Notes under the pieces: generated by a model
Databases searched by the model: none
The model's input: the letters and a program-made list of their open reading frames with translations, nothing else
Told to the model about the DNA's origin: nothing
Origin: Epidermidibacterium keratini
GTDB taxonomy: Bacteria; Actinomycetota; Actinomycetes; Mycobacteriales; Antricoccaceae
Reading direction: 5' to 3'
NCBI RefSeq assembly: GCF_009834025.1
Contig: NZ_CP047156.1
Span: forward strand, 2,998,067 to 3,062,066
DNA: 64,000 nucleotides
In this document: piece after piece, positions 1,612 to 26,916 of the stretch
How positions within the stretch are numbered: the first letter of the stretch is position 1
Layout of the letters: every line of letters begins with the position of its first letter
Position numbers and translations under genes: made by a program

Positions 1612-3402
1612 ATGAGCACGTCCGTGGCCGACTATCTGCTCGACCGGCTTCGTGCCTGGCGAGTCGACCAGGTATTCGGCTATCCCGGCGATGGCATCAA
1701 CGGAATCATCGGCGCCTTCGGTCGAGCCGATAACGACCCGAAGTTCATCCAGTCGCGCCATGAGGAGATGAGTGCCTTCGAGGCCGTCGGCTACGCGAAG
1801 TTCAGCGGCAACCTGGGCGTCTGTCTGGCTACATCGGGTCCTGGGGCGATCCACCTGCTCAATGGGTTGTACGACGCGAAGCTCGACCACGTCCCGATCC
1901 TGGCCATCGTCGGGCAGACTGACCGCTCGGCGATGGGTGGCAGCTATCAGCAGGAGGTGGACCTGCATTCGCTGTTCAAGGATGTTGCCAGCGACTACGT
2001 GCACACCGTGACGGTGCCCGAGCAGCTTCCTAACGTGCTTGACCGGGCGATCCGCACGGCCTTGAGCCGCAAAGCACCGACGGCGCTGATCATCCCGAAC
2101 GACGTTCAGGAGCTGAAGTACTCGCCACCGGGACATGAGTTCAAAATGGTGCCGTCCAGTCTGGATCTCACCTGGCCGCAGGTCATCCCCGACGACACTG
2201 CCGTACGCCGTGCAGCGGAGGTCCTGAACGCGGGGGAGAAGGTGGCCATCCTCGTCGGTCAGGGGGCGCGTAGTGCCAGCGTGGAGGTGCAGCAGGTTGC
2301 CGAGCGACTGGGCGCCGGCGTTGCCAAGGCGCTGCTGGGCAAGGACGTGCTCAGCGACGAGATCCCTTATGTGACAGGGTCAATAGGCCTTCTCGGCACG
2401 CGCCCGACGTACGAGATGATGCGTGACTGCGACACCTTGCTGACGGTCGGTTCGAGTTTTCCCTACAGCCAGTTCCTGCCCGCGCTGGACCAGGCGCGTG
2501 CGGTCCAGATCGACAACGACGCCTCGCTGATCGGCATGCGCTACCCGTACGAGGTCAACGTCGTCGGCGACGCAGCGCCGACACTCCAGGCGCTGTTGCC
2601 GTTGCTCGATGAGCGGGCGGACAAGTCGTGGCAGGCAGATATCGAGTCGAAGGTTGCGCGCTGGTGGGAGACGATGGACAGCGAAGCCCACGTCGATGCC
2701 GACCCGATCAACCCCATGCGACTGTTTTCCGAGGCATCGCCGCGGCTGCCGGACGACGCGATCGTCATTGCTGACAGCGGGTCAGCAGCAGACTGGTATG
2801 CACGGCTGCTGCGGTTCCGCGGACATATGCGCGGCTCGCTGTCGGGCACGCTCGCCTCGATGGGCCCCGGTGTTCCCTACGCCATCGGCGCGAAGTTCGC
2901 CGCTTCCGACCGACCGGTCATTGTGTTCGAGGGCGACGGCGCGATGCAGATGAACGGCTTGGCCGAGCTCATCACCATCGCCCGCTACTGGCAGGAGTGG
3001 ACAGACCCGCGACTGGTGATCGCCGTCCTGCACAACAACGACCTCAACCAGGTCACGTGGGAGCTGCGTGCGATGGGTGGCTCTCCGACGTTCATCGAGT
3101 CGCAGGCGCTGCCGAACGTTGACTATGCCGGGTTTGCAAGGTCGCTCGGGCTGGAGGCGCTGACGGTCATTGTCCCCGACGAGCTCGGCTTGGCATGGGA
3201 CAAGGCGCTCTCTGCTGATCGTCCGACCGTACTTGACGTGCACTGTGACCCGAACGTCCCGCCGATCCCACCGCACGCGACGTTTGAGCAGGCCAGCAAT
3301 GCGGCGCAGGCGTTGTTGCGAGGCGATGCCGAGGCGTGGGGCGTGGTCAAGCAGGGTGTCAAGACGAAGGTCCGGGAGATCTGGCCGGGCTCGTCGTCAT
3401 GA
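1612..3402 (+). CDS. Thiamine pyrophosphate-requiring enzyme, pyruvate oxidase/acetolactate synthase type
   Basis: About 596 residues with the three-domain layout of ThDP enzymes (PYR, central, PP). The N-terminal YPGDGINGIIGAF segment and the probable catalytic Glu in RHEEMSAFEAVGYAK (near residue 51) mark the PYR domain. The ThDP/Mg motif begins at EGDGAMQMNG near residue 440 and ends at HNNDLNQVTW. The closest characterised type is pyruvate:quinone oxidoreductase (PoxB), which converts pyruvate to acetate and CO2 using FAD and ThDP; an acetolactate synthase-like or oxalyl-CoA-like activity cannot be excluded. GTG 1600 would add four residues, and ATG 1612 looks more natural. The gene is convergent with the sigma factor and shares its terminator hairpin. 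Confidence 0.85.
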   Translation: MSTSVADYLLDRLRAWRVDQVFGYPGDGINGIIGAFGRADNDPKFIQSRHEEMSAFEAVGYAKFSGNLGVCLATSGPGAIHLLNGLYDAKLDHVPILAIVGQTDRSAMGGSYQQEVDLHSLFKDVASDYVHTVTVPEQLPNVLDRAIRTALSRKAPTALIIPNDVQELKYSPPGHEFKMVPSSLDLTWPQVIPDDTAVRRAAEVLNAGEKVAILVGQGARSASVEVQQVAERLGAGVAKALLGKDVLSDEIPYVTGSIGLLGTRPTYEMMRDCDTLLTVGSSFPYSQFLPALDQARAVQIDNDASLIGMRYPYEVNVVGDAAPTLQALLPLLDERADKSWQADIESKVARWWETMDSEAHVDADPINPMRLFSEASPRLPDDAIVIADSGSAADWYARLLRFRGHMRGSLSGTLASMGPGVPYAIGAKFAASDRPVIVFEGDGAMQMNGLAELITIARYWQEWTDPRLVIAVLHNNDLNQVTWELRAMGGSPTFIESQALPNVDYAGFARSLGLEALTVIVPDELGLAWDKALSADRPTVLDVHCDPNVPPIPPHATFEQASNAAQALLRGDAEAWGVVKQGVKTKVREIWPGSSS

Positions 3403-3405
3403 CCG

Positions 3406-3446
3406 CCTCAGCGGTGCGGCGGTGTTACGCCGCTGCACCGCTGAGG
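3406..3446. terminator. Bidirectional terminator hairpin overlapping the sigma-factor 3' end
   Basis: A perfect 12-bp stem, CCTCAGCGGTGC (3406-3417) with GCACCGCTGAGG (3435-3446), has a loop of 17 nt. It begins 3 bp after the stop of the ThDP enzyme gene and includes the stop and last codons of the convergent sigma-factor gene (stop at 3425-3427), so it can serve both transcripts. There is no U-tract on either side. Confidence 0.65.
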
Positions 3447-4294
3447 TCGTCGCGAAGGGTGGCGAGGATGCGACGCAGCACCCGAGAGACCTGCATCTGG
3501 GTGATTCCCACTTCGGAGCCGATCTCCTTCTGGGTCAGCTCGTCGTGGAAACGCAGGCGCAGGATGCGCTGATCACGTTCGGACAGGCGACTGATCGCCG
3601 GCGTCAGCAGCAATCGGTTCTCACTGTCAGCGTGTCCCGAGTCGTTGCCTTCCACGAGGTCGCCCACAGTCGTTGTCGTGTCGTCGCTGGCCGGACGGTC
3701 GAGTGACAACAGCGAGTAGTAGCCGTAGGCACAGTAGGTCTCGCCAAGCTCGGCCTCACTGACCCCGAGCTCCTCGCTGAGCTCACGGGTCGTTGGTTCG
3801 CGACCGAGGTCCTGAACGAGCTCGCCGTACGTCAGCTGGATCCTCGACTGAAGCTCCTGGATTCGCCTCGGCGGACGAATTGTCCAACCATGGTCGCGAA
3901 AGTAGCGCCTGATCTCGCCGCGAATCGTCGGAATCGCAAACGAGAGGAGGTCGCCTTCACGGCCGACGTCGAAGCGCCGTACCGCCAGGATCAGCCCCTC
4001 GTAGGCAACCTGACGTAGGTCTTCAAGGGGAACGCCGCGCCCGCTGTAGCGAGCGGCGATCTCCTCAGCGACGGTGGCATTGAGCAGCACTGCTTGCTGC
4101 CTGAACTCGTGTGCCGAGCGGTCATCCGCTGATGCGGATGCGGCCTCAAGCAGCTCACGGGTCCGCCGCCGCCGTTCATCGCCGGATAGCTGCCGCGATT
4201 GCTTCGCGCGCTCGGCGGAGGACATGGATGTGGGTTGTGCAGTGCCGGTGTTTGCTTTCGGCGCTCGAACGAAGGTCGAACTAGATGACACCAT
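3425..4294 (-). CDS. RNA polymerase sigma factor, SigB/SigF/SigG family (group 3)
   Basis: 289 residues containing sigma regions 2, 3 and 4. Region 2 carries the family-typical YEGLILAVRRFDVGREGDLLSFAIPTIRGEIRRYFRDHGW stretch (read as two pieces: AVRRFD and IRGEIRRYFRDHGW). Region 3 includes RPPRRIQELQSRIQ. Region 4 ends in the helix-turn-helix LTQKEIGSEVGITQMQVSRV. This family controls general stress, envelope or developmental regulons in actinomycetes and is usually held by an anti-sigma factor; no RsbW/RsbV-like gene adjoins it here. The N-terminus has a 40-residue polar extension. A candidate promoter of this sigma class lies upstream of the alcohol dehydrogenase about 2 kb away. Confidence 0.92.
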   Translation of the reverse strand: MVSSSSTFVRAPKANTGTAQPTSMSSAERAKQSRQLSGDERRRRTRELLEAASASADDRSAHEFRQQAVLLNATVAEEIAARYSGRGVPLEDLRQVAYEGLILAVRRFDVGREGDLLSFAIPTIRGEIRRYFRDHGWTIRPPRRIQELQSRIQLTYGELVQDLGREPTTRELSEELGVSEAELGETYCAYGYYSLLSLDRPASDDTTTTVGDLVEGNDSGHADSENRLLLTPAISRLSERDQRILRLRFHDELTQKEIGSEVGITQMQVSRVLRRILATLRDDLSGAAA

Positions 4295-15495: not shown

Positions 15496-16368
15496 CTAGT
15501 TGTCGTCCTTGCGGCCGCGGTGACCGGCGTACAGAGCTGCTCCGCCTGAGGCGAGCAGGCCCGCGGCCAGCCAGCCCAGCATGGCGGCGTCGGTGCCGGT
15601 GTTCGCCAGCTTCGGCGTACTCGTCGTCCCACTGGTGCTGACATCGACCGTGCTTCCGCCGCCGGAGACCGGCGGGGTGGTGGCGGTGCCGGGCGTGCCG
15701 GGGGCGACGACCTGGATCGGCACCGTCAGCCTCGTGCCGTCGGCAGCAACGACGGTGATCAGGTGACCGCCCAGCCCCGTGCCCTGGGGGATGACGCCGG
15801 TGATCGAGACCGTGCCGTCCAACCCGACCGTCCCCGTGCCGAACGTGACGTTGGGGTCATCGAACGTCACGGTGACCTGCTGGCCGGACTGCAGACCGAC
15901 CGCGGTGACCGTAACCTGCTGGCCCGCCGTGACGGTGGAGTCGTTGACCCGTGCGGCGGGGTCGGCGACCTCGTCCTGGGCCATGAACTGGACCGCGCCG
16001 TAGGTCAGCTTGCCGGTGTAGAGGTCGCACACGGCATTGATCGTGTAGGTGCCGGGTGGGACCGCACCGGAGTCGTTGGGGGAGTACTCGACCGACCACG
16101 TGCCGTCGGCGTCGACGCTGTACGGGCCGGTGTACTCATCGTGGCCGTCGGGGTAGATCAGCGTCGCGCTGATGGTTCCCGTCGTACCGCCGTCGGTGAT
16201 GCAGCCCGCACCGGAAAGTGTGAAGGCGGCGCTGGTGTCAACCGGGCTCGGGTTGACCGTCGGTGCCGGCAGATCGGCCGCAAAGGCGCCACTCGCACCG
16301 GCTAGAACGACCCCGAAGCCGAGTGCGCCGGAGGCGGTAGCGGTGACGAGCTTGCGGGTGACGGTCAT
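15496..16368 (-). CDS. Secreted LAxTG-type cell-wall protein with a two-cysteine module (paralogue 1)
   Basis: 290 residues: Sec signal peptide (cleavage near GAFAADLP), a module of about 90 residues with SGAGCITDGGTTGT, DADGTWSVEY and AVCDLYTG, a second Ig-like beta domain (about 125-215) without cysteines, a Thr/Ser/Gly/Pro-rich linker, and a C-terminal sorting signal LANTG followed by a hydrophobic helix and RGRKDDN. The LAxTG pattern suggests a class E-type sortase, which is not encoded here. RBS AAGGA precedes ATG 16368. It is the first of three tandem paralogous genes on this strand. Function is unknown; the architecture suggests a surface or appendage component. Confidence 0.8.
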   Translation of the reverse strand: MTVTRKLVTATASGALGFGVVLAGASGAFAADLPAPTVNPSPVDTSAAFTLSGAGCITDGGTTGTISATLIYPDGHDEYTGPYSVDADGTWSVEYSPNDSGAVPPGTYTINAVCDLYTGKLTYGAVQFMAQDEVADPAARVNDSTVTAGQQVTVTAVGLQSGQQVTVTFDDPNVTFGTGTVGLDGTVSITGVIPQGTGLGGHLITVVAADGTRLTVPIQVVAPGTPGTATTPPVSGGGSTVDVSTSGTTSTPKLANTGTDAAMLGWLAAGLLASGGAALYAGHRGRKDDN

Positions 16369-16438
16369 GATGCGGGTCCTTGCGCAGAAGGCCCCACGCC
16401 GGATCGGCCTACCGAACGTGAGGCGGGGGTGAAACTAG

Positions 16439-16466
16439 CCGTAGAAGCATGCTCTAACGCCTACGG
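16439..16466. promoter_or_regulatory. Inverted repeat upstream of wall-protein gene 1
   Basis: CCGTAG (16439-16444) and CTACGG (16461-16466) flank a 16-bp spacer containing the palindrome AGCATGCT. It lies 70-100 bp upstream of the start codon at 16368, where an operator could sit. No known regulator consensus is matched. Confidence 0.3.
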
Positions 16467-16530
16467 TGGCGCTGCAACGCAATTCGCGAAGTGTTCACCG
16501 TGGGCGCGGTCACATTAGGTGAGATCTGGC

Positions 16531-16752
16531 GTAAAACGCCGGTGCGCCGTACGACCGCGGGGGCTCGGTCGTACGGCGCACCGGGTGTTGCTAGGTGCAG
16601 ATCCCCTTAGGAGGTCTTGCGGCGGCGGCCGGCGTACAGCGCGGCGGCGCCGCTGGCGACCAGGCCGCCGGCGAGCCAGCCGAGGCCGTCGGTGTCGGCG
16701 CCGGTGGCGGCCAGCTGCGGGCCGGTTGCCTTCGAGCCGCCGGTGCCGGTGC
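16531..16752. repeat. 222-bp near-identical direct repeat, copy A (gene 3' end plus terminator)
   Basis: Positions 16531-16752 match 17680-17901 (offset 1149) over 222 bp with a single difference, G16717 versus C17866. The block covers the last 49 codons of each wall-protein gene, the stop, and the downstream terminator. The one difference changes Gln to Glu just before the LAATG motif. Upstream of the block the two genes diverge completely. Confidence 0.9.
16541..16582 (-). terminator. Rho-independent terminator of wall-protein gene 2
   Basis: A perfect 17-bp stem, GGTGCGCCGTACGACCG (16541-16557) and its complement (16566-16582), with an 8-nt loop. Read on the minus strand the stem is followed by GGCGTTTTAC, a short U-tract. 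It lies 24 bp past the stop of the 16607 gene. Confidence 0.8.
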
Positions 16753-17491
16753 TCGCGGGAACGGTCGTCCCAGATCCGCCCGAGGGATGGGTGGACGGGC
16801 CGGTCGCGGTGTCATAGACCTCGAAGGCGATCGGCTCGTACGCGGACTCCCAGTCAGTAGTAGTGCACACCGCCGCGAACTCGTAGTTACCGAGGTTGGC
16901 CGGATAGCTGACACTCCAGCTCCCATCGGCACCGGCGGTAAACGTGGTGTCGACCTGCGTGCCGTCCTGGAGCGTGCCGACCAGATTTACCTCTCCCGGA
17001 GCGCCGGCGGCACTGATGCAACCCGCGCCGACGATCATGATCGTCGATCCGTCCGCGCTGAGAACTGCGCTCAGATCGGGAAGCGCCGCGGGGACCTGCA
17101 CGCTGCTGGGCGGGTAGCTGACGGTGGACTGGTAGATATCGCAGCTCGCCGCGACCGTCGCCGTGCCGGACGCGACATCATCCGCACTGATGTTGGCCTG
17201 CCACGATCCGTCATCCGCCGTGGGAGCCGTGCCCGACCACGTCTGTCCGGCTGCGTCGGTCACGGTGAGGGTGACAGTTCCGGTCGTCGTGCCTTCGGTG
17301 CCGATGCATCCGGTTCCGGAGACGCTGAAACCCTCAGCCGGGTCGCTATCGGGAACGTCGACGGTGTAGTTGTAGTAGGCGACCGACGGTGCGCTCAGGT
17401 CGGCAGGCGGGTCGGCGTACGCCGACGTGGCCGGGATAATTGCGGTCGCGATGCCAGCGGCGAACAGGGAACCTACGAGGCGTCGGCGCAT
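16607..17491 (-). CDS. Secreted LAxTG-type cell-wall protein with two two-cysteine modules (paralogue 2)
   Basis: 294 residues. After a signal peptide (cleavage near SAYADPPAD) come two copies of the shared module: SVSGTGCIGTEG, ADDGSWQANIS, AASCDIYQ; then MIVGAGCISAAG, GADGSWSVSYP, AAVCTTTD. A Ser/Gly/Thr linker leads to the sorting signal LAATGAD, a hydrophobic helix and GRRRKTS. ATG 17491 follows GGAGG by a good distance, so I prefer it to the longer frame to 17569. The last 49 codons are almost identical to paralogue 3. It probably displays a disulfide-stabilised beta module on the wall; its role is unknown. Confidence 0.8.
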   Translation of the reverse strand: MRRRLVGSLFAAGIATAIIPATSAYADPPADLSAPSVAYYNYTVDVPDSDPAEGFSVSGTGCIGTEGTTTGTVTLTVTDAAGQTWSGTAPTADDGSWQANISADDVASGTATVAASCDIYQSTVSYPPSSVQVPAALPDLSAVLSADGSTIMIVGAGCISAAGAPGEVNLVGTLQDGTQVDTTFTAGADGSWSVSYPANLGNYEFAAVCTTTDWESAYEPIAFEVYDTATGPSTHPSGGSGTTVPASTGTGGSKATGPQLAATGADTDGLGWLAGGLVASGAAALYAGRRRKTS

Positions 17492-17679
17492 AGCCAACCT
17501 CCATCTCATGATGCGGGCAAGCACCACGTGCTGAACGCGATGCTGTCGGTGAGTCGCCCGGGGATACACGCGTCATATACACGAAGGTGAAGGTGGCGTG
17601 TGGGCTGAGCAGAGCGTAGCGCCGCGTGGCGGTTCGGTGAGATTTCGTTGCCGATCGGTGACCAGCCGTTTTGTGGCCG

Positions 17680-17901
17680 GTAAAACGCCGGTGCGCCGTA
17701 CGACCGCGGGGGCTCGGTCGTACGGCGCACCGGGTGTTGCTAGGTGCAGATCCCCTTAGGAGGTCTTGCGGCGGCGGCCGGCGTACAGCGCGGCGGCGCC
17801 GCTGGCGACCAGGCCGCCGGCGAGCCAGCCGAGGCCGTCGGTGTCGGCGCCGGTGGCGGCCAGCTCCGGGCCGGTTGCCTTCGAGCCGCCGGTGCCGGTG
17901 C
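17680..17901. repeat. 222-bp near-identical direct repeat, copy B
   Basis: Partner of 16531-16752: 221 of 222 positions are identical. It includes the 3' end of the 17756 gene and its terminator. Such identity only at the 3' ends points to recent gene conversion or a duplicated cassette end. Confidence 0.9.
17690..17731 (-). terminator. Rho-independent terminator of wall-protein gene 3
   Basis: Identical to the terminator at 16541-16582: 17-bp perfect stem, 8-nt loop and a short U-tract on the minus strand. It ends the 17756 transcript 24 bp after the stop and separates it from gene 2. Confidence 0.8.
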
Positions 17902-18337
17902 CGGTGCCCGATCCCGTGCCCGAGCCGCCGGTGTTGCCAGCCGGTGCGGTCGTCGCGGCGTTGATGGCGGCGTCGGGGTAGTTCAGCGTCTCGCCGTAGA
18001 TGTCACAGGTGGCCTTCACGACGTAGGAGTCGCTCGGGTCCAAGGTGGCCTCCAGGCCCCAGCTGCCGTCAGCCTCAGCGGTGTACGTCGGGGAGCCATC
18101 TTCGTTGAAGACCGGCTCGCCAGCGGAGTCATAGACGTAGACGGTGATGGTGCCAGGCGTGCCTTCGGTGCCGATGCAGCCGGCGCCGACGATCTCGTAG
18201 TTGTAGTCGTCACCGTCGACTGCCGTGACGGTGATCGGCGGGACGCTCTCCGGCGGTGCGGCCGAGGCCGGCCCAGCGATCAGTGCGAATCCAGCGGTGG
18301 CGCCCACCACGACGGCGGCGCGGGTCAGTCGCTTCAC
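17756..18337 (-). CDS. Secreted LAxTG-type cell-wall protein with one two-cysteine module (paralogue 3)
   Basis: 193 residues, the shortest paralogue: signal peptide (cleavage near GPASAAPPE), one module (EIVGAGCIGTEGTPGT, EADGSWGLEA, KATCDIYGETLNYP), a Gly/Thr-rich linker with repeated GTGSGTG, then LAATGAD, a membrane helix and GRRRKTS. GTG 18337 has GGGGAG 7 bp upstream. The single module makes it the simplest form of the family. It is divergent from cydA across 215 bp. I do not recognise a described family; function unknown. Confidence 0.8.
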   Translation of the reverse strand: MKRLTRAAVVVGATAGFALIAGPASAAPPESVPPITVTAVDGDDYNYEIVGAGCIGTEGTPGTITVYVYDSAGEPVFNEDGSPTYTAEADGSWGLEATLDPSDSYVVKATCDIYGETLNYPDAAINAATTAPAGNTGGSGTGSGTGTGTGGSKATGPELAATGADTDGLGWLAGGLVASGAAALYAGRRRKTS

Positions 18338-18470
18338 AGATGTTCTCCCCGGGGGATAGGTAAATGCCGCGTTTAATATCCGTACGGCCTCTGTGAAAGT
18401 ACACGAACCATGGCGTGGATCACACCCCGGCCCCTACACCGACTCGATGTGTCCGGACCCACCGCTGACC

Positions 18471-18486
18471 AGGGACCTTGGTCCCT
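18471..18486. promoter_or_regulatory. DosR/DevR-like palindrome upstream of cydA
   Basis: AGGGACCTTGGTCCCT is a perfect 16-bp palindrome that matches the core of the actinobacterial DosR/DevR box (GGGAC-TWWAGTCCC-like, with GGGACC and GGTCCC arms seen in other actinomycetes). Its centre lies 74 bp upstream of the cydA start. It could recruit a NarL-type hypoxia/NO regulator to activate cytochrome bd synthesis, and could also affect the divergent wall-protein gene. Confidence 0.55.
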
Positions 18487-18552
18487 AGTGAGGTTCATGT
18501 GAGGCGCGGACCATGAGTAGCGGAGTTCGGTTTAAGGGAATCGGAGGGCTCC

Positions 18553-20001
18553 GTGAGCGCAGAGCTGATCGACCGGTGGCAGTTCGGGATCATCACCGTC
18601 TACCACTTTCTGTTCGTTCCGCTGACCATCGGCTTGGCGCCGCTGATCGCGGGACTGCAGACGGCATACATCCGCACCGGCAAGCTGCAGTACGTCCGCG
18701 CCGCGAAGTTCTTCGGCAAGCTCTTCCTGATCAACTTCGCCATCGGCGTCGCGACCGGGATCGTGCAGGAGTTCCAGTTCGGCATGAACTGGTCGGAGTA
18801 CTCGCGCTTCGTCGGTGACATCTTCGGCGCCCCGCTGGCCATGGAGGGACTGGTCGCCTTCTTCCTCGAGTCGACCTTCCTCGGGCTGTGGATCTTCGGC
18901 TGGGGCCGACTCTCACCCAAGCTGCACGTGACCTCGATCTGGCTGGTCTCGATCGGCACGATGTTCTCGGCGTACTTCATCCTCGCTGCGAACTCGTGGA
19001 TGCAGAACCCGGTCGGCATGACGATCAACGAAGACGGCCGGCCGCTGCTCGGCTCGATCGGCGATGTGCTCTTCAACCCCGTGCAGCTCGTCGCCTTCCC
19101 GCACGTGATTGCCGGAGCCGCCATGACCGGCGGCGCGGTGATGGCCGTCGTGAGCGCGTGGTATCTCTATCGCGGCAAGTACGCCGACGTCTTCGGCCCG
19201 ACCTTGAAGCTCGGCGCCTGGTCGATCCTCGTGGGCGGTGTCGCGTCGGTGATCACCGGCGACCTGCAGGCCCGCGTGATGACCATGGTGCAGCCGATGA
19301 AGATGGCCGCCGCTGAAGCGCTCTACAACACCACCGACGGCGCCAGCTTCTCGGTCTTCACCATCGGCAGTCTCGACGGAAGCCGCGAGATCTTCTCGAT
19401 CCGCATCCCCAACCTGCTGTCATTCATGGCCACTGGCTCGTTCAACGGCACGGTCGAGGGGATCGACCAGCTGCAGGCCCAGTACGCCGCGGAGTACGGC
19501 GCCGGGACCTACACGCCGATGATTCCGGTGACCTACTGGACGTTCCGGCTCATGATCGGCACCGGCGCGCTCGTCGCGCTGTGGGCGGCATGGGCGCTGT
19601 GGCAGAAGAAGCGCGGCAAGCTCGAGGGCAACAAGTGGCTGTGGCGCGGCGCCATCCTCGCACTGACGATGCCTTTCCTGGCCAACTCCTTCGGCTGGAT
19701 CTTCACCGAGATGGGCCGCCAGCCGTGGGCGGTGTTCGGGCTGCTGAAGGTCAAGGACTCGATCTCACCATCGGTCTCGGCCGGCGAGGCGCTGACCGGG
19801 TTGATCTCGCTCACGCTGCTGTACGGCGTACTCGCGGTCGTCAACCTCAAGCTGATGATCAAGTACGCCAAGTTCGGCCCACCGTCTGAGGAAGAGGTGC
19901 TGGACGCCCTCGAACCGAAGCCGCTGCTGCCCTCGGACAAGTTCGACAACGACGACCATGACGACGAGGACGCCGAGCGCCCGATGTCGTTCGCCTACTA
20001 G
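18553..20001 (+). CDS. cydA: Cytochrome bd ubiquinol/menaquinol oxidase subunit I
   Basis: 482 residues, about nine membrane helices. The heme b595/d-region His is in ITVYHFLFVPLTIG near residue 18, the heme b558 His is in VAFPHVIAGAAMTGG, and the quinol-oxidase signature is EMGRQPWAVFG. The Q-loop is short, as in actinobacterial and other non-enteric enzymes. With CydB it oxidises quinol and reduces O2 to water at high affinity. GTG 18553 follows GGAGGG at 18543-18548. It heads cydABDC, with spacing of 12 bp to cydB. A DosR-like box lies upstream. Confidence 0.96.
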   Translation: MSAELIDRWQFGIITVYHFLFVPLTIGLAPLIAGLQTAYIRTGKLQYVRAAKFFGKLFLINFAIGVATGIVQEFQFGMNWSEYSRFVGDIFGAPLAMEGLVAFFLESTFLGLWIFGWGRLSPKLHVTSIWLVSIGTMFSAYFILAANSWMQNPVGMTINEDGRPLLGSIGDVLFNPVQLVAFPHVIAGAAMTGGAVMAVVSAWYLYRGKYADVFGPTLKLGAWSILVGGVASVITGDLQARVMTMVQPMKMAAAEALYNTTDGASFSVFTIGSLDGSREIFSIRIPNLLSFMATGSFNGTVEGIDQLQAQYAAEYGAGTYTPMIPVTYWTFRLMIGTGALVALWAAWALWQKKRGKLEGNKWLWRGAILALTMPFLANSFGWIFTEMGRQPWAVFGLLKVKDSISPSVSAGEALTGLISLTLLYGVLAVVNLKLMIKYAKFGPPSEEEVLDALEPKPLLPSDKFDNDDHDDEDAERPMSFAY

Positions 20002-20013
20002 CGGGGACACACC

Positions 20014-21081
20014 ATGACACTCGTCGACTTCTGGTTCTACATCATCGCCCTGCTATGGGTGGGATACCTCTTCCTCGAAGGCTTCGACTTCGGCGTCGGC
20101 ATGCTGCTGCCGGTCCTGGCGCGCGACGACAAGGAACGTCGCGTCATGATCAACACGATCGGGCCAGTGTGGGACGGCAACGAGGTGTGGCTGCTCACCG
20201 CTGGCGGTGCGACGTTCGCCGCGTTCCCGTTCTGGTACGCGACCATGTTTTCCGGGTTCTTCCTGCCGTTGTTGATCATTTTGCTCGCGCTGATCCTGCG
20301 AAACGTCGCCTTCGAGTACCGCGGCAAGGGTCGGGCCGGTGACACCCGCTGGATCCGCACGTGGGACCGCTGCCTCATCTACGGCTCGCTGGTGCCTGCG
20401 GTCATGTGGGGCGTCGCCTTCGCCAATATCCTGCGCGGCGTGCCGCTGAACGCCAACGGCGACTACACCGGCGGCTTCTTCAACCTGCTCAACCCATATG
20501 CCCTGCTTGGTGGGCTGACGACGCTGAGCGTCTTCCTGATGCACGGCGCGGTGTTCCTTGCGCTGAAGACGGCAGGCGACATCCAGCAGCGCGCCGAGGC
20601 GCTCGCGAAGAAGCTCGGTCTGCTCGCGCTCGTCATCGCCGCCGTGTTCTTGCTCTGGACCCAGCTCGCGTACGGATCGGCCGGAAGCGCCGTTCTCTTC
20701 GCGATCGCTGCTGTCGCGTTGATCTTCGCCCTGGCGATGATCTTCGGCAGCCGTGAAGGTTGGGCCTTCGTCGGACTCGGCATCACGATCGCCACGTTCA
20801 CCTTCGGGATCTTCGTGGCGCTCTACCCGAACGTGATGCCAGCAACCGACCCACAGTTCACGTTGACCGCCGAAGCGGCCGCATCCTCGCCGTACACCCT
20901 GAAGGTCATGACCATCGTCGCCGCCATCACGGCGCCGGTCGTGGTTGCCTATCAGGCATGGACGTACTGGGTGTTTCGCAAGCGGATCAGCGTCAAGACC
21001 ATCCCCGATGCGCCGAAGGCCCCCCGGCCCAAGGCGCAGGAGGTGGGGCCGCCGGAAGGAACGGTCGAAACCGCGAGATGA
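20014..21081 (+). CDS. cydB: Cytochrome bd oxidase subunit II
   Basis: 355 residues, about eight membrane helices. The N-terminus (FYIIALLWVGYLFLEGFDFG, then the GPVWDGNEVWLL signature) is diagnostic of CydB. It pairs with CydA in the membrane. It follows cydA by 12 bp, and its stop codon overlaps the cydD start by 4 nt, so the oxidase and its assembly transporter are translationally linked. The C-terminal tail is short, polar and Pro/Lys-rich, with no special features. Confidence 0.96.
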   Translation: MTLVDFWFYIIALLWVGYLFLEGFDFGVGMLLPVLARDDKERRVMINTIGPVWDGNEVWLLTAGGATFAAFPFWYATMFSGFFLPLLIILLALILRNVAFEYRGKGRAGDTRWIRTWDRCLIYGSLVPAVMWGVAFANILRGVPLNANGDYTGGFFNLLNPYALLGGLTTLSVFLMHGAVFLALKTAGDIQQRAEALAKKLGLLALVIAAVFLLWTQLAYGSAGSAVLFAIAAVALIFALAMIFGSREGWAFVGLGITIATFTFGIFVALYPNVMPATDPQFTLTAEAAASSPYTLKVMTIVAAITAPVVVAYQAWTYWVFRKRISVKTIPDAPKAPRPKAQEVGPPEGTVETAR

Positions 21082-22718
21082 GGCCCCTCGATTCGAGGTT
21101 GCTCACTCTCGCCTCGGCCACCCGGTGGCTGATGGCCGGCGCCGTCGTCGTTGGTGTGGGGGCCACGGCGGCGGCGATCGGCTATGCCACGGTCCTCGCG
21201 AGCATCATCACCGATGCGATCCGCTACGACCAGCCGGTCGCTGGACTGGCGCGATCCCTTGCCTGGCTGGGGATCTGGATCCTGCTGCGTACGGCGTTCG
21301 CGTGGGCGGGGGAGTACTTCCCACGCACGATCGCGGCGCGCATGACTGCTCAGCTGCGCCAGGCCCTGCTGCGCCACGTGACCACAGAGGACCGTGGGGC
21401 CGGCGTACGCCGCAGCCCCTCGTCGCTGATTGCCCTCGCCACGAGCGGCATCGACGACCTGCAGGGGTACGCCGCCCGCTTCCTGCCGCAGCTGGTCGTC
21501 GCCACGCTGGTGCCGATCGGGGTGGTGGCCTACGTCGGCTGGCTCGATCTCACGTCGGCGTTGATCGTCGCCGGGACATTGCCGTTGATACCGCTGTTCA
21601 TGGTGCTGATCGGCAAGTTCACCCAGACTCGCACCGATCGGCAGTACCGCCGGCTGGAGCAGCTGGCTCATCGCTTCACCGACGTGGTGACCGGGCTGAG
21701 CACGCTGAAGGCATACGGCCGCGCCGAGGCGCAGGGCTCACTGATCGCCGATGCCGACGCCCGTTACAAGAAGGCGGCGATGTCGACGCTGCGTATCGCG
21801 TTCCTGTCGTCCTTCGCCCTTGAGCTGCTCGCGACGCTGTCGGTTGCGCTTGTCGCCGTCGCGATCGGGCTTCGGCTTGCTGGCGGGAGCATGGAGCTGC
21901 AGCCCGCGCTGACCGTGCTGCTCGTCGTACCGGAGGCCTACCTAGCGCTGCGCGCTGTCGGCACCCACTTCCACGACAGCGTCGACGGATTGACTGCGGC
22001 GCAACGATTGTTTGCGGTCATCGAGGATCGGCCGGCGCCCTCCGGGACGGGCCGCGTCCCGGCCGGCCCCGTGCCGATCGAGCTGCGTGACATCGAAGTG
22101 GACTTTGCCGTCGACGACCGCCGGCCAGTCGCGATCGCGGATCTGACGATCGTTCCGGGCACGATGACGGCGCTTCGCGGTCCCAGCGGTGCCGGCAAGA
22201 GCACCGTGCTGAACCTCGTCGCCGGTCTTCTTGCCCCGACGAGCGGCGCGGTAGTCGTCGGCGGCACCGACCTGCGCGAGATCGACCGCGACGCCTGGCG
22301 CTCGCACATTGCCTATGCCGCACAGCATCCGCACCTCATCGCTGGGACTCTCGGTGACAATCTGCGACTGCTGCGACCGGACGCGCCCGACGACGAGCTG
22401 CAACGCGCAGTACACATCGCAGCGCTCGACGATGTGGTTGCCGGACGTGGCGTGGACGCCGAGCTCGCCGACGGTGGGGCCGGGCTCTCGCACGGGCAGC
22501 GGCAGCGGGTCGCACTCGCCCGGGCGCTGGTCGCCCGAAGACCGCTGCTCTTGCTCGACGAGCCGACGTCCGGACTCGACGAGCAGACCGAACGTCTGGT
22601 GCTCTCGCGCCTGCGCGCAGCGTTGCCGGATACGACGGTGATCATGGCCAGCCACAGCCCCGACGTACTCGACTTCGCAGATGTCGTGCTCAGTGTCGGC
22701 GCGGGACTGCGCTCATGA
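21078..22718 (+). CDS. cydD: Thiol reductant ABC exporter subunit CydD
   Basis: 546 residues: six-helix membrane domain followed by an ATPase domain. Walker A is GPSGAGKSTVLNL, the signature is LSHGQRQRVALARAL and Walker B is LLLLDEPTSG. CydDC exports glutathione or cysteine to the periplasmic side and is needed to assemble cytochrome bd. In actinomycetes without glutathione the physiological thiol is uncertain. ATG 21078 overlaps the cydB stop; the frame continues upstream but only inside cydB. Its stop overlaps cydC by 4 nt. The two half-transporters are separate genes, whereas some actinomycetes carry a fused CydDC. Confidence 0.93.
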   Translation: MRPLDSRLLTLASATRWLMAGAVVVGVGATAAAIGYATVLASIITDAIRYDQPVAGLARSLAWLGIWILLRTAFAWAGEYFPRTIAARMTAQLRQALLRHVTTEDRGAGVRRSPSSLIALATSGIDDLQGYAARFLPQLVVATLVPIGVVAYVGWLDLTSALIVAGTLPLIPLFMVLIGKFTQTRTDRQYRRLEQLAHRFTDVVTGLSTLKAYGRAEAQGSLIADADARYKKAAMSTLRIAFLSSFALELLATLSVALVAVAIGLRLAGGSMELQPALTVLLVVPEAYLALRAVGTHFHDSVDGLTAAQRLFAVIEDRPAPSGTGRVPAGPVPIELRDIEVDFAVDDRRPVAIADLTIVPGTMTALRGPSGAGKSTVLNLVAGLLAPTSGAVVVGGTDLREIDRDAWRSHIAYAAQHPHLIAGTLGDNLRLLRPDAPDDELQRAVHIAALDDVVAGRGVDAELADGGAGLSHGQRQRVALARALVARRPLLLLDEPTSGLDEQTERLVLSRLRAALPDTTVIMASHSPDVLDFADVVLSVGAGLRS

Positions 22719-24367
22719 TCAGCGATGTCGCGCGTCTCATCCGGCTGGCGCGGCCAGCGCGCACCCGGCTCATCGGCGCGATCCTGCTGGCTGCCGGCGC
22801 CACCGGCGCGGCGGTCGCGCTCCTCGCGGTCTCCGGGTGGCTAATTGCGCGGGCTTCCTTCGAACCCCCCGTGCTGCACCTGATGGTCGCCGTCGTCGCC
22901 GTGCGCTTCTTCGGGATCAGCCGCGGCGTGCTGCGGTACGCCGAACGTCTGGTCGGCCACGACGCCGCGTTTACCGCGCTCGCCACCGTGCGTCAACGCC
23001 TCTATGCGCAGCTGGAGCGGCTCGCACCGATAGGCCGGCTATGGCGCCGCGGCGACCTGCTTGATCGCCTGGTTGCCGATGTCGATGCCGTCCCGAACGT
23101 GCTCACCCGCGCGGTCGTGCCCGCTGTCTCCGGCGTCCTCGTTATGGCCGCTGCTGTCATCGCCGCCACCATCATCTTGCCGTCGGCTGGAGCGGTGCTC
23201 GCGACTGCGCTTGTTATTGGCGCGATTCTCGGTCCGTGGACGGTGGCGCGCGCTGACCAGCGCGAGTCGGCGCAGCTGCGTGACGTGCAGGCGCGCCGGG
23301 CAGACCTCATCGCCGAGACCGTCCTTGCCGCAAGCGATCCCGGGCTCGCCGAGATCGGTCCGGGCCGGCTCGCCGCAGTCGCCGATCTCGACGTTGCCGA
23401 GGCTCGCCTCGTGCGTCGCGCGGCGCGGCGGGCCGGTGTGGCAAACGCCGCCACCATGCTGTCGCTGACCGCGGCAAGCGCGGTGATCTGGTGGCTGGGC
23501 AGCGGGGCGACCCAGGCCGGCACCCTCGCGGCCGAGAACGCGACGCTGCTGGTGCTGCTGCCGCTCGGCTTGCTGGAGGTCTCGGGCGCGATGCAGCCCG
23601 CCGTGGCTGCCGCCGCTCAGGCCGCCGCAAGCGCGCGCCGGATCTTCGGCGTACTCGACACTCCGGCCGAACGAGCTCGACCCGGCGCGGAGGTGCCCGC
23701 TGAGCCGTGGCCGATCGTGCTGCGCGACGCGGCGCTGACCTGGCCCGGCGCCGACGAGCCCAGCGTGCGCGATGTCGACCTTCACCTGGCGCCCGGACGG
23801 CGCATCGCGATCGCCGGACCGTCCGGCAGCGGCAAGTCCACGGTGTTGGCCGGGTTGATGGAGTACGCCGATGTCACCGGCGGCGATTATCTGGTTGCGG
23901 GCGCCCCACATGCCGAGTACGCCGCCGACACGGTGCGCTCGATCTACGCATGGTGTGACCAGCAAGCCCACCTGTTTGACACGACGATCGCCGAAAACGT
24001 GCGGCTGTCGCGGCCCGGTGCAAGCGACGAGCAGATCGCCGCAGCCCTCGACGCGGCGCGGCTCAGCGACTGGATCGCGAGCTTGCCGCACGGCGCCGAG
24101 ACGATGGTGGGACAGTTCGGCGTACGCGTCTCCGGCGGGCAGCGCCAGCGCATCGGGTTGGCCCGGGCCTTGCTCGCCGACCGCCCGGTGCTGCTCGCTG
24201 ACGAGCCGACCGCGAGCCTGGACCGGGAGACCGCCGATCGGTTGATGCGTGATCTGCTGGCCGCGTCCGGTGACCGCGCCCTCGTGGTAGTCACGCACGA
24301 TCGCCGCTATTTAGGCGATTTTGACGTCGTGCTCGACCTCGAGGCGACGCAGCTGCTCGCGCGATAG
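22715..24367 (+). CDS. cydC: Thiol reductant ABC exporter subunit CydC
   Basis: 550 residues, membrane domain plus ATPase. Walker A is GPSGSGKSTVLAGL, the signature is VSGGQRQRIGLARALL and Walker B VLLADEPTAS has the usual Asp-Glu pair. The switch His is in VVVTHDRRY. It forms a heterodimer with CydD. It starts at ATG 22715 inside the cydD stop and ends 13 bp before the stop of the convergent LuxR-type regulator. The three 4-nt or near-zero junctions from cydB onwards indicate a single transcript. Confidence 0.93.
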   Translation: MISDVARLIRLARPARTRLIGAILLAAGATGAAVALLAVSGWLIARASFEPPVLHLMVAVVAVRFFGISRGVLRYAERLVGHDAAFTALATVRQRLYAQLERLAPIGRLWRRGDLLDRLVADVDAVPNVLTRAVVPAVSGVLVMAAAVIAATIILPSAGAVLATALVIGAILGPWTVARADQRESAQLRDVQARRADLIAETVLAASDPGLAEIGPGRLAAVADLDVAEARLVRRAARRAGVANAATMLSLTAASAVIWWLGSGATQAGTLAAENATLLVLLPLGLLEVSGAMQPAVAAAAQAAASARRIFGVLDTPAERARPGAEVPAEPWPIVLRDAALTWPGADEPSVRDVDLHLAPGRRIAIAGPSGSGKSTVLAGLMEYADVTGGDYLVAGAPHAEYAADTVRSIYAWCDQQAHLFDTTIAENVRLSRPGASDEQIAAALDAARLSDWIASLPHGAETMVGQFGVRVSGGQRQRIGLARALLADRPVLLADEPTASLDRETADRLMRDLLAASGDRALVVVTHDRRYLGDFDVVLDLEATQLLAR

Positions 24368-24380
24368 CTCGACCGGCAGG

Positions 24381-25022
24381 TCAGCGGATGCGCATGGTGG
24401 CGATGGCCGCGGCACGTGAGGTCACTCCGACCTTGAGGAAGATCCGGGTGACGTAGTTCTTCACGGTCTTCTCCGAGAGCCCGAGTCGACGGGCAATGGC
24501 CTTGTTGGACTCTCCGTCCAGCAGCAGCGCGAAGACCCGCGCCTCCTGCCCGGTGAGCTCGGGCGCTTCGTTTTGGTGGGTATGGCGCGTGGGGCAGTCC
24601 GCCGTACGCCCGCAGGCAAAGGCCTGTGCCTGCAGCTCGCCGTCGGGATCGTCGACGACGTCGCGGATGCGGGAGGTCAGTGCCGACTCAGGGATCATCA
24701 CGATCCGCCCGCACTTCGGCGGAGTGAACCCACCGAGGCGTCCGAGGCACACGATGCGTGCCGTGCCCGCGTGGGCGGCGAGGGCGCAGAAGCGGTCGTT
24801 GGCCGTCACGGGGTCGGTGACGTCGTTGGAGGCGATGACGACGTCGATGTCGCACGTCTCCAGGAGGGCAATGGCAGCGGGTAGAGAGCCAGCCTCATGG
24901 ACCGTGCTGATGTGCGGGTCGTCGTGCAGCACCGCGCCGAGCCCCAGGCGCACCACCGGCCGCTCGTCGACGAGAAGGACGCGAAGATCCCGACTCGGAC
25001 TACCGTCGGCTGTGCTGCTCAC
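24381..25022 (-). CDS. LuxR/NarL-type regulator with a degenerate receiver domain
   Basis: 213 residues. Residues about 13-125 look like a receiver domain: VLLVDERPVVRLGLGAVL gives the acidic pair D19/E20. The position of the phospho-acceptor Asp is Ser65 (IDVVIASND), so canonical phosphorylation is not expected, although D67 is near. A six-cysteine set (57, 79, 92, 104, 137, 143) lies between and after the receiver strands. The C-terminal LuxR helix-turn-helix is complete (LTGQEARVFALLLDGESNKA and IARRLGLSEKTVKNYVTRIF). GTG 25022 is preceded by AAGGAAGT. It is convergent with cydABDC, which carries a DosR-like box, so a functional link is possible but unproven. Confidence 0.8.
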   Translation of the reverse strand: MSSTADGSPSRDLRVLLVDERPVVRLGLGAVLHDDPHISTVHEAGSLPAAIALLETCDIDVVIASNDVTDPVTANDRFCALAAHAGTARIVCLGRLGGFTPPKCGRIVMIPESALTSRIRDVVDDPDGELQAQAFACGRTADCPTRHTHQNEAPELTGQEARVFALLLDGESNKAIARRLGLSEKTVKNYVTRIFLKVGVTSRAAAIATMRIR

Positions 25023-25119
25023 CGCACTTCCTTTCCCCTGCTCTCTAGCCTAATGCGGCACGTGTGATAACGGGGAGTGAATGCCTGGTGATCGTCGTCC
25101 TAACGGTGCTGTGGGTCGC

Positions 25120-26067
25120 CTAGCACTCGGCGGTGAAGCCCAGCTCACGCAGCGTGGAGTCGGTGTCCTCGTTCGGAGCGAGAGGCACCGCCTGGCCCGG
25201 CCCGACCTCGATCGCGGGCGGCTCGTGCGGGAGCTCGGTGATCTGCCCGAGGTTGGTATCGAGGCCGGCAAGCTCAAAAATCCCAGTGTTGGAGTCGGTC
25301 ACCAGCTCGCCGGTCAGCTGCCAGGCCAGTCGCTGCAGGGCGATCGGGTTCCAGCGTTCCGCGCGTACGGCATCGCCCAGCGCGCGAAGAACGAGCCCGC
25401 CCCACGAGGTGCGGTCGGTGATGCCGTCGGCGGTCGGCACCCACTGGCCGTCGATGAGCTCCTCGGCGTTGCGTGAGCGGACTAGCGCCAGCGCGGTGGC
25501 ACCGTCGATTGTCTGCGTGCCCGCGGTCTGCAGATCGAGTCCGGCGACCGGATCGCGCACCGGGTTGGGCAGGTCGACCTCAATGCCGCCGAGGGTGTCG
25601 ACGAGCGCGGCGAACCCGCCGAAACCGAGCTGCAGATAGTGGTCGGCCGGGATCCCGAAGTTGGTGCACAACGTGCCGACGAGTGCGTCGGGGCCGTCCA
25701 GCAACCGCAGACCCACTCGTTCTGGATAGCCATCGACGGTCACCAGCATGTCCCGCGGGATGCTCAGGACCCGCGTGCCGGCGTCGGACTCGACCACGAC
25801 GAGGATGAGGTCCGCGCGCTCACCTTCGACCTGCTCGGTGGAGCCGAACTGGTCCTGGCTCGCGCCGTCGGGAATCGACCCGCGACCGTCGGAGCCGACG
25901 ATCACCCATGTCTGCAGGTCGTCATCGACCGCCGGCATACTCACGTCGACGTCGGTGATCCGGTTGCTGAGTACGACGGCATCGGCGATCAGCAGCCCGA
26001 GCACGACCACGAGGATGCTGAGCAGGATCCGGATGCGGCGTGAACGGGGTAGGCGAGAACGCGGCAC
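25120..26067 (-). CDS. LCP-family (LytR-CpsA-Psr) cell-wall polymer ligase
   Basis: 315 residues: a cytoplasmic Arg-rich start, one membrane anchor (RILLSILVVVLGLLIADAVV) and an extracytoplasmic LCP domain. Conserved pieces are SDGRGSIPDG, RADLILVVV, LSIPRDMLVTVDGY and LALVRSRN, which carry the Arg/Asp residues that bind the pyrophosphate lipid donor. LCP proteins transfer glycopolymers from a lipid carrier to peptidoglycan or to proteins. It lies 6 bp downstream of the 26074 paralogue of the wall-protein family, so the two are probably one operon. The GTG start has only a weak ribosome binding site, consistent with coupling. Confidence 0.88.
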   Translation of the reverse strand: MPRSRLPRSRRIRILLSILVVVLGLLIADAVVLSNRITDVDVSMPAVDDDLQTWVIVGSDGRGSIPDGASQDQFGSTEQVEGERADLILVVVESDAGTRVLSIPRDMLVTVDGYPERVGLRLLDGPDALVGTLCTNFGIPADHYLQLGFGGFAALVDTLGGIEVDLPNPVRDPVAGLDLQTAGTQTIDGATALALVRSRNAEELIDGQWVPTADGITDRTSWGGLVLRALGDAVRAERWNPIALQRLAWQLTGELVTDSNTGIFELAGLDTNLGQITELPHEPPAIEVGPGQAVPLAPNEDTDSTLRELGFTAEC

Positions 26068-26073
26068 GTGGGC

Positions 26074-26916
26074 TTAGCCGCGTGCCCGGCCGGCGTACGA
26101 CGCCAGTGCGCCAAGTCCAATCAGTCCGGCACCGATGAGCCCGAGCCGCCCCGCGTCGAGGCCGTCGACCAGGGCGGTGGGGGTCTCACCTGGTGCGGCC
26201 GCGCCGCCGGAGCCACGATCGTCGGCCGAGCTGGGCGCGGGTGCGGCCTGAGGCGCGGACGTACTGCTCTGCTGCGCCGTGGTCGTTGCGGGAGCGCTGG
26301 TCGTCGTCGCCGTGGACGGCGTGCTCGATGGCGTCCCGGGCGCGCTCGGTGACGTCGTCGCGGGAGGCGTGGAGCCTGGCGCCGCCGCCGGAGGCGACGT
26401 CGCTGGCGCCGCAGCCGCGCCAGTCGCGTCGGGCGCCGCCGCGTCGGGCGCTGCGGCGTCGGGGGCGGTTTGGGCTTGTGCGGGCTCGGCGGCGATGGTG
26501 ACGGTGAGCGGGGGATAGGCGGTGGCGCTGCCGTAGAGGTCACAGCTTGCATTCACGGTGATGGTGCCGGCGACCTGGCCCGCGGTGACGCTGATTGTCC
26601 AGGAGCCGTCGCCGTTGACGGTGCTCGCGCTTGAGCTCGTGCCGTCGGGGCCCGAGATTGAGACCGTGACGGTGCCCGCGATGCCCTCGGAGCCCACGCA
26701 GCCGGTGCCGCTCACCTGCACCTCGCCGCCCGACGCGACGACCTGCGGACTCGCCGACAGTGGCCCGAGCGACGTCGGCGCATCGGCGTAGGCCGAGCCT
26801 GCGCTCATCCGCAGACCAAGCAGCACCACGCCCAGCATCGCGACGACCAGCGCCGCGATCGGTATCGCGCGCACGCCAAGGCGCGCGGAGGAGGGGACGG
26901 TGCGGCGGGCTGACAA
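26074..26916 (-). CDS. Secreted two-cysteine-module protein without a sorting signal (paralogue 4)
   Basis: 280 residues. A membrane-spanning signal (residues about 17-42, ending SAGSAYADAP) precedes one module with QVSGTGCVGSEGIAGT, NGDGSWTISV and NASCDLYGSATAYPP. A long Ala/Pro/Ser/Thr-rich linker of about 120 residues, with repeats of PDAAA, follows. A C-terminal helix (GLIGAGLIGLGALASYAG) ends in RARG, but no LPxTG or LAxTG motif precedes it, so it may be membrane-anchored rather than sortase-linked. Start TTG 26916 has a possible TGAGG site; a GTG at 26874 is an alternative. It is in an operon with the LCP gene. Function unknown. Confidence 0.72.
   Translation of the reverse strand: MSARRTVPSSARLGVRAIPIAALVVAMLGVVLLGLRMSAGSAYADAPTSLGPLSASPQVVASGGEVQVSGTGCVGSEGIAGTVTVSISGPDGTSSSASTVNGDGSWTISVTAGQVAGTITVNASCDLYGSATAYPPLTVTIAAEPAQAQTAPDAAAPDAAAPDATGAAAAPATSPPAAAPGSTPPATTSPSAPGTPSSTPSTATTTSAPATTTAQQSSTSAPQAAPAPSSADDRGSGGAAAPGETPTALVDGLDAGRLGLIGAGLIGLGALASYAGRARG

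Follow-up and report, generated by a model that had tools for sequence, protein, structure and literature searches.

What does an unnamed two-cysteine module do in a family of secreted wall proteins, and what can be made of an LCP-enzyme gene that adjoins one member of the family? We addressed these questions in a 64,000-nucleotide stretch of the Epidermidibacterium keratini genome (assembly GCF_009834025.1, contig NZ_CP047156.1, positions 2,998,067 to 3,062,066; hereafter the window), in which four minus-strand genes, here called A, B, C and D, encode five copies of the module (one each in A, C and D, and two in B). Our answer is that the module is, judged by homology, the ectodomain of GspA-type wall proteins, and that the locus is probably a variant of the GspA-LcpA protein-glycosylation system of Actinomyces oris. 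The first-pass annotation, made from the letters of the DNA, had described four genes with five modules, three LAxTG ends and one bare helix, forming a modular, mostly sortase-anchored surface family, and our analysis bears out this description, with LAxTG in A, B and C and the helix in D.

A recurrent two-cysteine module

In an alignment of the window modules, the motifs G-x-G-C, D-G-x-W and A-x-C and a later tyrosine are invariant in all five copies. The ten cysteines of the four proteins (positions 56 and 114 in A; 88, 143, 184 and 235 in B; 54 and 111 in C; 73 and 125 in D) all fall in module pairs, two per module, with none outside. A profile of nine modules from other genomes recovered exactly A to D among the 392 window open reading frames of at least 90 codons (E = 5e-10 for C, 1.4e-8 for A, 6e-7 for B and 1.9e-6 for D; next frame 0.12), on which ground we reject chance resemblance; the second module of B scores only E = 0.54 alone in this profile. 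Across the whole 4.02-Mb genome, a profile of the five window modules matches only those five copies, which it does by construction, and the next match has E = 0.87. Nor is the domain private to this genome: at least 8 of 296 genomes across the phylum, its own included, carry a match at E ≤ 0.001 (8.3e-4 to 1.2e-8 in the others), a lower bound because at most 17 candidates were scored per genome, and 8 of 41 relatives carry one at E ≤ 0.01, weakly in G033 and G035. A phmmer search of gene B against solved structures gave 0 matches, and a contig scan of genomes with gene C found no relative.

Homology to a GspA-type ectodomain

In A. oris, lcpA lies immediately downstream of gspA, and LcpA is required for glycosylation of the wall protein GspA (PMC6381275). 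To stand in for the A. oris GspA sequence, we used the gene immediately upstream of an LCP gene in genome G698, whose product is 92% identical to the 5V8C part (5V8C being the structure of A. oris LcpA) over 282 residues. The product of this upstream gene has a signal peptide, a module of the form V-S-G-T-G-C ... G-N-W ... A-G-C and a second domain, and it carries the motif LAQTG; on the other side, downstream of the LCP gene, there is a second module gene. Compared by profile with four domains of this sort, which we call Actinomycetaceae-type from our reading of the match to 5V8C, the window modules gave 94.7% (E = 6e-8), and both cysteines line up; comparison with five modules of family f16 gave 97.9% (E = 6e-13). 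In control comparisons, a set of five Big-type repeats matched the window modules with 58.6% over 29 columns (E = 9.5e-5) and the Actinomycetaceae-type domains with 2.2%. The module encoded by the G698 gene, the recovery of A to D by an outside profile and the pairing of module and LCP described below together argue that the window module is a GspA-type ectodomain.

That relationship qualifies the earlier statement that no named domain carries this signature. In the window proteins, all Pfam and NCBIfam matches to the module stay below cut-off, and Pfam returned no full-module hit to a well-described domain, so to that extent the statement stands; a precedent does exist, however, in the GspA-type ectodomain and its pairing with an LcpA-type LCP. 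A Pfam scan of the 12 modules of our alignment A2 gave only sub-threshold Ig-like matches, and the sub-threshold module matches include Big_13 (PF19077; 4.8e-4, 21 bits versus a cut-off of 27) and Ca_tandemer (NF033510; 1.4e-5, 25.3 bits versus 50). In five related full-length proteins from other genomes, only the wall anchor exceeded its cut-off, joined in one of them by Big_3 (residues 114-170, 22.2 bits versus 21.2), which we read as lying between the module and the second domain.

Structure prediction also places the module among beta-sandwiches. AlphaFold2, run on the five window sequences, predicted an all-beta sandwich with a mean predicted local distance difference test score (pLDDT) of 82.7; its best structural match is the adhesin repeat 6xi3 (Z 10.4, root-mean-square deviation (rmsd) 2.2, 88 aligned residues), and further neighbours are fibronectin-like and other sandwiches. 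The cysteine pair is conserved in all 12 aligned modules, which were selected with a profile that itself includes the cysteines, and in four of four Actinomycetaceae domains; homologues without the pair, which would have spoken against the first-pass reading, were not seen in these sets, except that two LCP-linked proteins (G603 and G547) lack the module altogether. In the model the first cysteine sits after strand two and its partner within strand six, and we infer that they pair as in the classical Ig fold; the module is probably an Ig-like domain with one disulfide. The genome encodes one VKOR, which makes oxidative folding outside the membrane plausible. The ectodomain of A is predicted to be all-beta across both halves (pLDDT 84.3 in the best model, means of 61 to 71 in the other four), and structure comparison of this two-domain form gave mostly alignments spanning both domains at an rmsd of about 7 to 14, which says no more than that they are beta-sandwiches. 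Among the papers listed by our literature search (10 of 24), no paper mentioning GspA contains the term 'Ig-like', a negative that extends to those papers only.

One might therefore ask whether the module is simply an ordinary Ig-like adhesin or spacer repeat of the Big_13 or Ca_tandemer kind, with an incidental link to LCP genes. The sub-threshold matches and the adhesin repeat at the head of the structural matches speak for this. The module shares with such repeats an Ig-like beta-sandwich and a D-G-x-W-like turn. Yet it misses every curated cut-off, has an invariant cysteine pair not found in Big-type repeats, occurs in one or two copies per protein rather than in long arrays, and resembles GspA domains more closely than Big-type repeats, so that we consider this explanation very improbable. 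An ordinary Big_13 repeat as such was rejected on its score below cut-off and its weak profile match.

An LcpA-type gene follows gene D

The LCP gene starts 6 bp after gene D, which places D, and not A, B or C, immediately upstream of it in the position of gspA. The best solved-structure match of its product is 5V8C (E = 5.6e-76; next 3.6e-16), and it is 35.5% identical to the 5V8C part. A tree of 35 LCPs unites the window LCP, 5V8C and 18 other LcpA-type rows with support of 100/99; the other 15 rows include one paralogue from the window genome and none of its remaining LCP genes. TagT, TagU, TagV and other LCP enzymes share the LCP core with the window protein but reach profile scores of at most 62 bits, compared with 259 for 5V8C. 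LcpA needs its catalytic arginines R149 and R266 and is stabilized by a C179-C365 disulfide, a bond not seen in LCPs characterized before it (PMC6381275). R128, R149, R266 and C179 of LcpA align with R84, R105, R219 and C134 of the window LCP, whose final residue, C315, is invariant in five orthologues and corresponds to C365 by position only.

The pairing of module and LCP recurs in other genomes. We counted as LcpA-type those loci scoring at least 229 bits (best other LCP, 217), which gave 26 loci from three sets: 13 loci, nine genomes with 10 LCPs, and four loci, the last after removal of two whose contigs equal in length those of loci in the second set. A module protein, detected with a profile trained on several of the counted proteins, lies in the LCP flank at 18 of the 26 (10/13, 5/9 and 3/4 by set), whereas the 33 other LCP loci have none. 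With flanks equalized at 1.5 kb, the counts are 14 of 22 LcpA-type LCPs (a set without G004 and with two LCPs of G713) and 0 of 33. An earlier profile, trained only on twelve modules of G000, G001, G002, G004, G005 and G006, found untrained LCP neighbours in nine genomes (G471, G445, G545, G525, G487, G698, G475, G481 and G713) at E = 1e-16 to 1.6e-4 among the matches listed; G562 (E = 0.035) and G683 (0.092) scored weakly, and no match was listed for G670.

In G698, G481 and G475 (loci L126, at 3-1103 and 2526-3566, L092 and L094), the LCP gene has a module gene to either side, an arrangement that suggests that one LCP may serve several substrates.

The pairing of D with an LcpA-type gene points to protein glycosylation, but the LCP could instead be an ordinary wall-glycopolymer transferase acting on peptidoglycan, with the module proteins structural and co-located for regulation. 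According to PMC6381275, characterized LCP enzymes other than A. oris LcpA put polymers onto peptidoglycan, and the same source leaves open that LcpA also acts there; the window genome has further LCP genes (five matches), and two LcpA-type loci have no surface protein that we could see. Against this stand the orthology of the window enzyme to the sole LCP shown to glycosylate a protein and its pairing with this one substrate domain at 18 of the 26 LcpA-type loci, and we regard an ordinary transferase as rather unlikely.

Several observations weigh against reading the locus as a GspA-LcpA system. First, D has no sorting motif, only a C-terminal helix, whereas by eye 13 of the 18 LCP-paired module proteins have such a motif; A, B and C carry one, but no LCP gene adjoins them. 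Second, D lacks the second domain seen in A and in many GspA-type proteins. Third, 29 of the 33 control LCPs come from other classes and four from the same order, so part of the contrast in pairing may be taxonomic. Fourth, the eight loci without a module protein include two without a visible surface protein (G477 and G459) and the two noted above with an LCP-linked protein that has only the second domain (G603 and G547), which means that the module is not required for LCP linkage; the other four are two at contig ends (G004 and G687) and two with two-cysteine proteins recognized by eye but below threshold (G562 and locus L051). Because D lacks LxxTG, we file it as a variant of GspA-LcpA and not a strict member. 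In A. oris, glycosylation of GspA does not need the sorting signal (PMC6381275), and loss of the motif is thus no argument against D as a substrate; we consider D a probable substrate of the adjoining LCP.

Wall anchoring and the paralogues A, B and C

A, B and C each end in LAxTG, a helix and a basic tail, the features of class E sortase substrates, and D lacks such a signal; class E sortases use LAXTG (PMC5148588). The genome holds one PF04203 match, a class E sortase (NF033747, 238 bits versus a cut-off of 160) outside the window, of the kind that the first-pass annotation had advised looking for. From these motifs, A, B and C appear to be LAxTG paralogues for that sortase. The LPXTG_anchor model has 13 matches over cut-off in the genome, including A, B and C, and also exceeds its cut-off in 9 of 14 control genomes. 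An LPXTG_anchor match at genome positions 1874162-1874263 is separated from the class E sortase gene by no more than about 2 kb (loci L134 and L001).

Compared with A. oris, the locus is alike in its module, its LCP clade and key residues and the order of D and the LCP gene, and differs in that D lacks a sorting motif and second domain, in the three extra anchored paralogues apart from the LCP gene and in a sortase that is class E and encoded elsewhere. It could be that D and the LCP form a glycosylation pair while A, B and C no longer take part in it and act solely as sortase-anchored wall proteins. Their distance from the LCP gene fits this, as does the grouping (97/95, long branches) of the second module of B with that of an LCP-free two-module orphan in G001, which suggests that LCP-free anchored paralogues may go back far in the history of the family; most of the module tree lacks support (2 of 13 inner branches starred). 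The shared genome and module, and the three genomes in which two module genes flank one LCP, make a multi-substrate LCP plausible instead. We take the departure of A, B and C seriously, at somewhat less than an even chance.

The 3' tracts of B and C, which span the sorting signal and a downstream inverted repeat (Table 1), are 99.55% identical over 222 bp by blastn while the modules of the two genes differ strongly, so that gene conversion of the anchor end is probable and would be recent.

Table 1. Features of the locus, in window coordinates
Feature	Position	Strand	Description
Gene A	15496..16368	-	290 aa; signal peptide, one module, second cysteine-free beta domain, LANTG sorting signal
Gene A module	15979-16263	-	profile positions
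Gene A LANTG sorting signal	about 15499-15609	-	
Gene B	16607..17569	-	320 aa as listed; two modules, LAATG sorting signal
Gene B modules	17093-17365 and 16817-17080	-	profile positions
3' tract of gene B	16531..16752	-	sorting signal and downstream inverted repeat; blastn
Gene C	17756..18337	-	193 aa; one module, LAATG sorting signal
Gene C module	17957-18241	-	profile positions
3' tract of gene C	17680..17901	-	copy of gene B tract; blastn
LuxR-type regulator gene	24381..25022	-	downstream of LCP gene; GerE 2.5e-16
LcpA-type LCP gene	25120..26067	-	315 aa; Pfam LytR_cpsA_psr 1.7e-22
Gene D	26074..26916	-	280 aa; one module, 102-residue Ala/Pro/Thr/Ser linker, C-terminal helix without LxxTG; GspA-type LCP partner
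Gene D module	26494-26757	-	profile positions

The region 18553-25022, flanked by module genes and the LCP gene, holds what we take, by eye, to be a cydAB/cydDC-like cluster. In G001, a gspA-lcpA pair lies beside a gene that is, by eye, cydA-like, in the place held in the window by C, B and A. A LuxR-like gene, recognized by eye, also follows the LCP gene in G002.

Other arrangements were seen at related loci. Two LCP- and sortase-linked proteins (L116, 2964-3599; L117, 2667-3137) have only the second, cysteine-free domain (G-F-x-P-G-E) and no two-cysteine module. In loci from metagenome-assembled genomes, a sortase-like gene lies between the surface-protein and LCP genes (L051, 3962-4744; L052, 3765-4622; L054, 4071-4919; L055, 4109-4903; L056, 1078-1857); the two that were scanned, from L051 and L052, have their best matches among class F and general sortase models, below every cut-off. 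Some LCP-linked module proteins end in M-P-x-L-G-[ST]-D-V-I followed at once by a stop, with no membrane helix (L052, 1905-2735 and 2907-3692; L054, 2984-3796; L056, 137-925), which is possibly an unusual sorting end, or else these proteins may be soluble substrates.

A proposed glycosylation locus

Weighing all this, we think it likely, with appreciable room for doubt, that the module is of GspA type, that D and the LCP gene form a gspA-lcpA unit whose enzyme glycosylates D, and that A, B and C are sortase-anchored paralogues. By analogy with A. oris, D would be exported, gain its disulfide and fold, and its C-terminal helix would keep it in the membrane. The LcpA-type enzyme would then take a phospho-glycan from a lipid pyrophosphate carrier and attach it to D, perhaps, as a guess, at the Ser/Thr-rich linker, whose 102 residues include 14 serines and 16 threonines. 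The class E sortase would join A, B and C to peptidoglycan through LAxTG, and these proteins may be glycosylated in trans. What the sequences themselves show is the homology of the module, the orthology of the LCP, the conserved catalytic and cysteine residues, the recurrent gene pairing, the sorting motifs, and a single sortase and a single VKOR in the genome; the disulfide, the glycosylation, its acceptor site and any action of this LCP on A, B and C are carried over from A. oris or presumed.

A bolder extension, which we hold only tentatively and think rather doubtful as a whole, is that LCP enzymes across Actinobacteria glycosylate proteins by way of the two-cysteine Ig-like domain, which would be a portable module for acceptance of the glycan or for recognition. 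The window would then be a multi-substrate locus, with D held in the membrane beside the LCP and three wall-anchored paralogues displaying glycan, and in some gut metagenome-assembled genomes the unit would include a dedicated sortase-like gene, with substrates that lack a membrane helix.

A. oris provides a demonstrated case of an LCP enzyme that glycosylates a wall protein; conservation of this activity in Actinobacteria is only suggested in that work (PMC6381275). Tying an unnamed domain to GspA-LcpA yields a searchable signature, the module together with an LcpA-type LCP, that marks a second function for a major family of cell-wall enzymes. Its natural variants, among them a partner that has no sorting motif, additional anchored paralogues, loci where the second domain occurs alone and loci equipped with a sortase-like gene, should help to locate the part of the substrate that the LCP recognizes.

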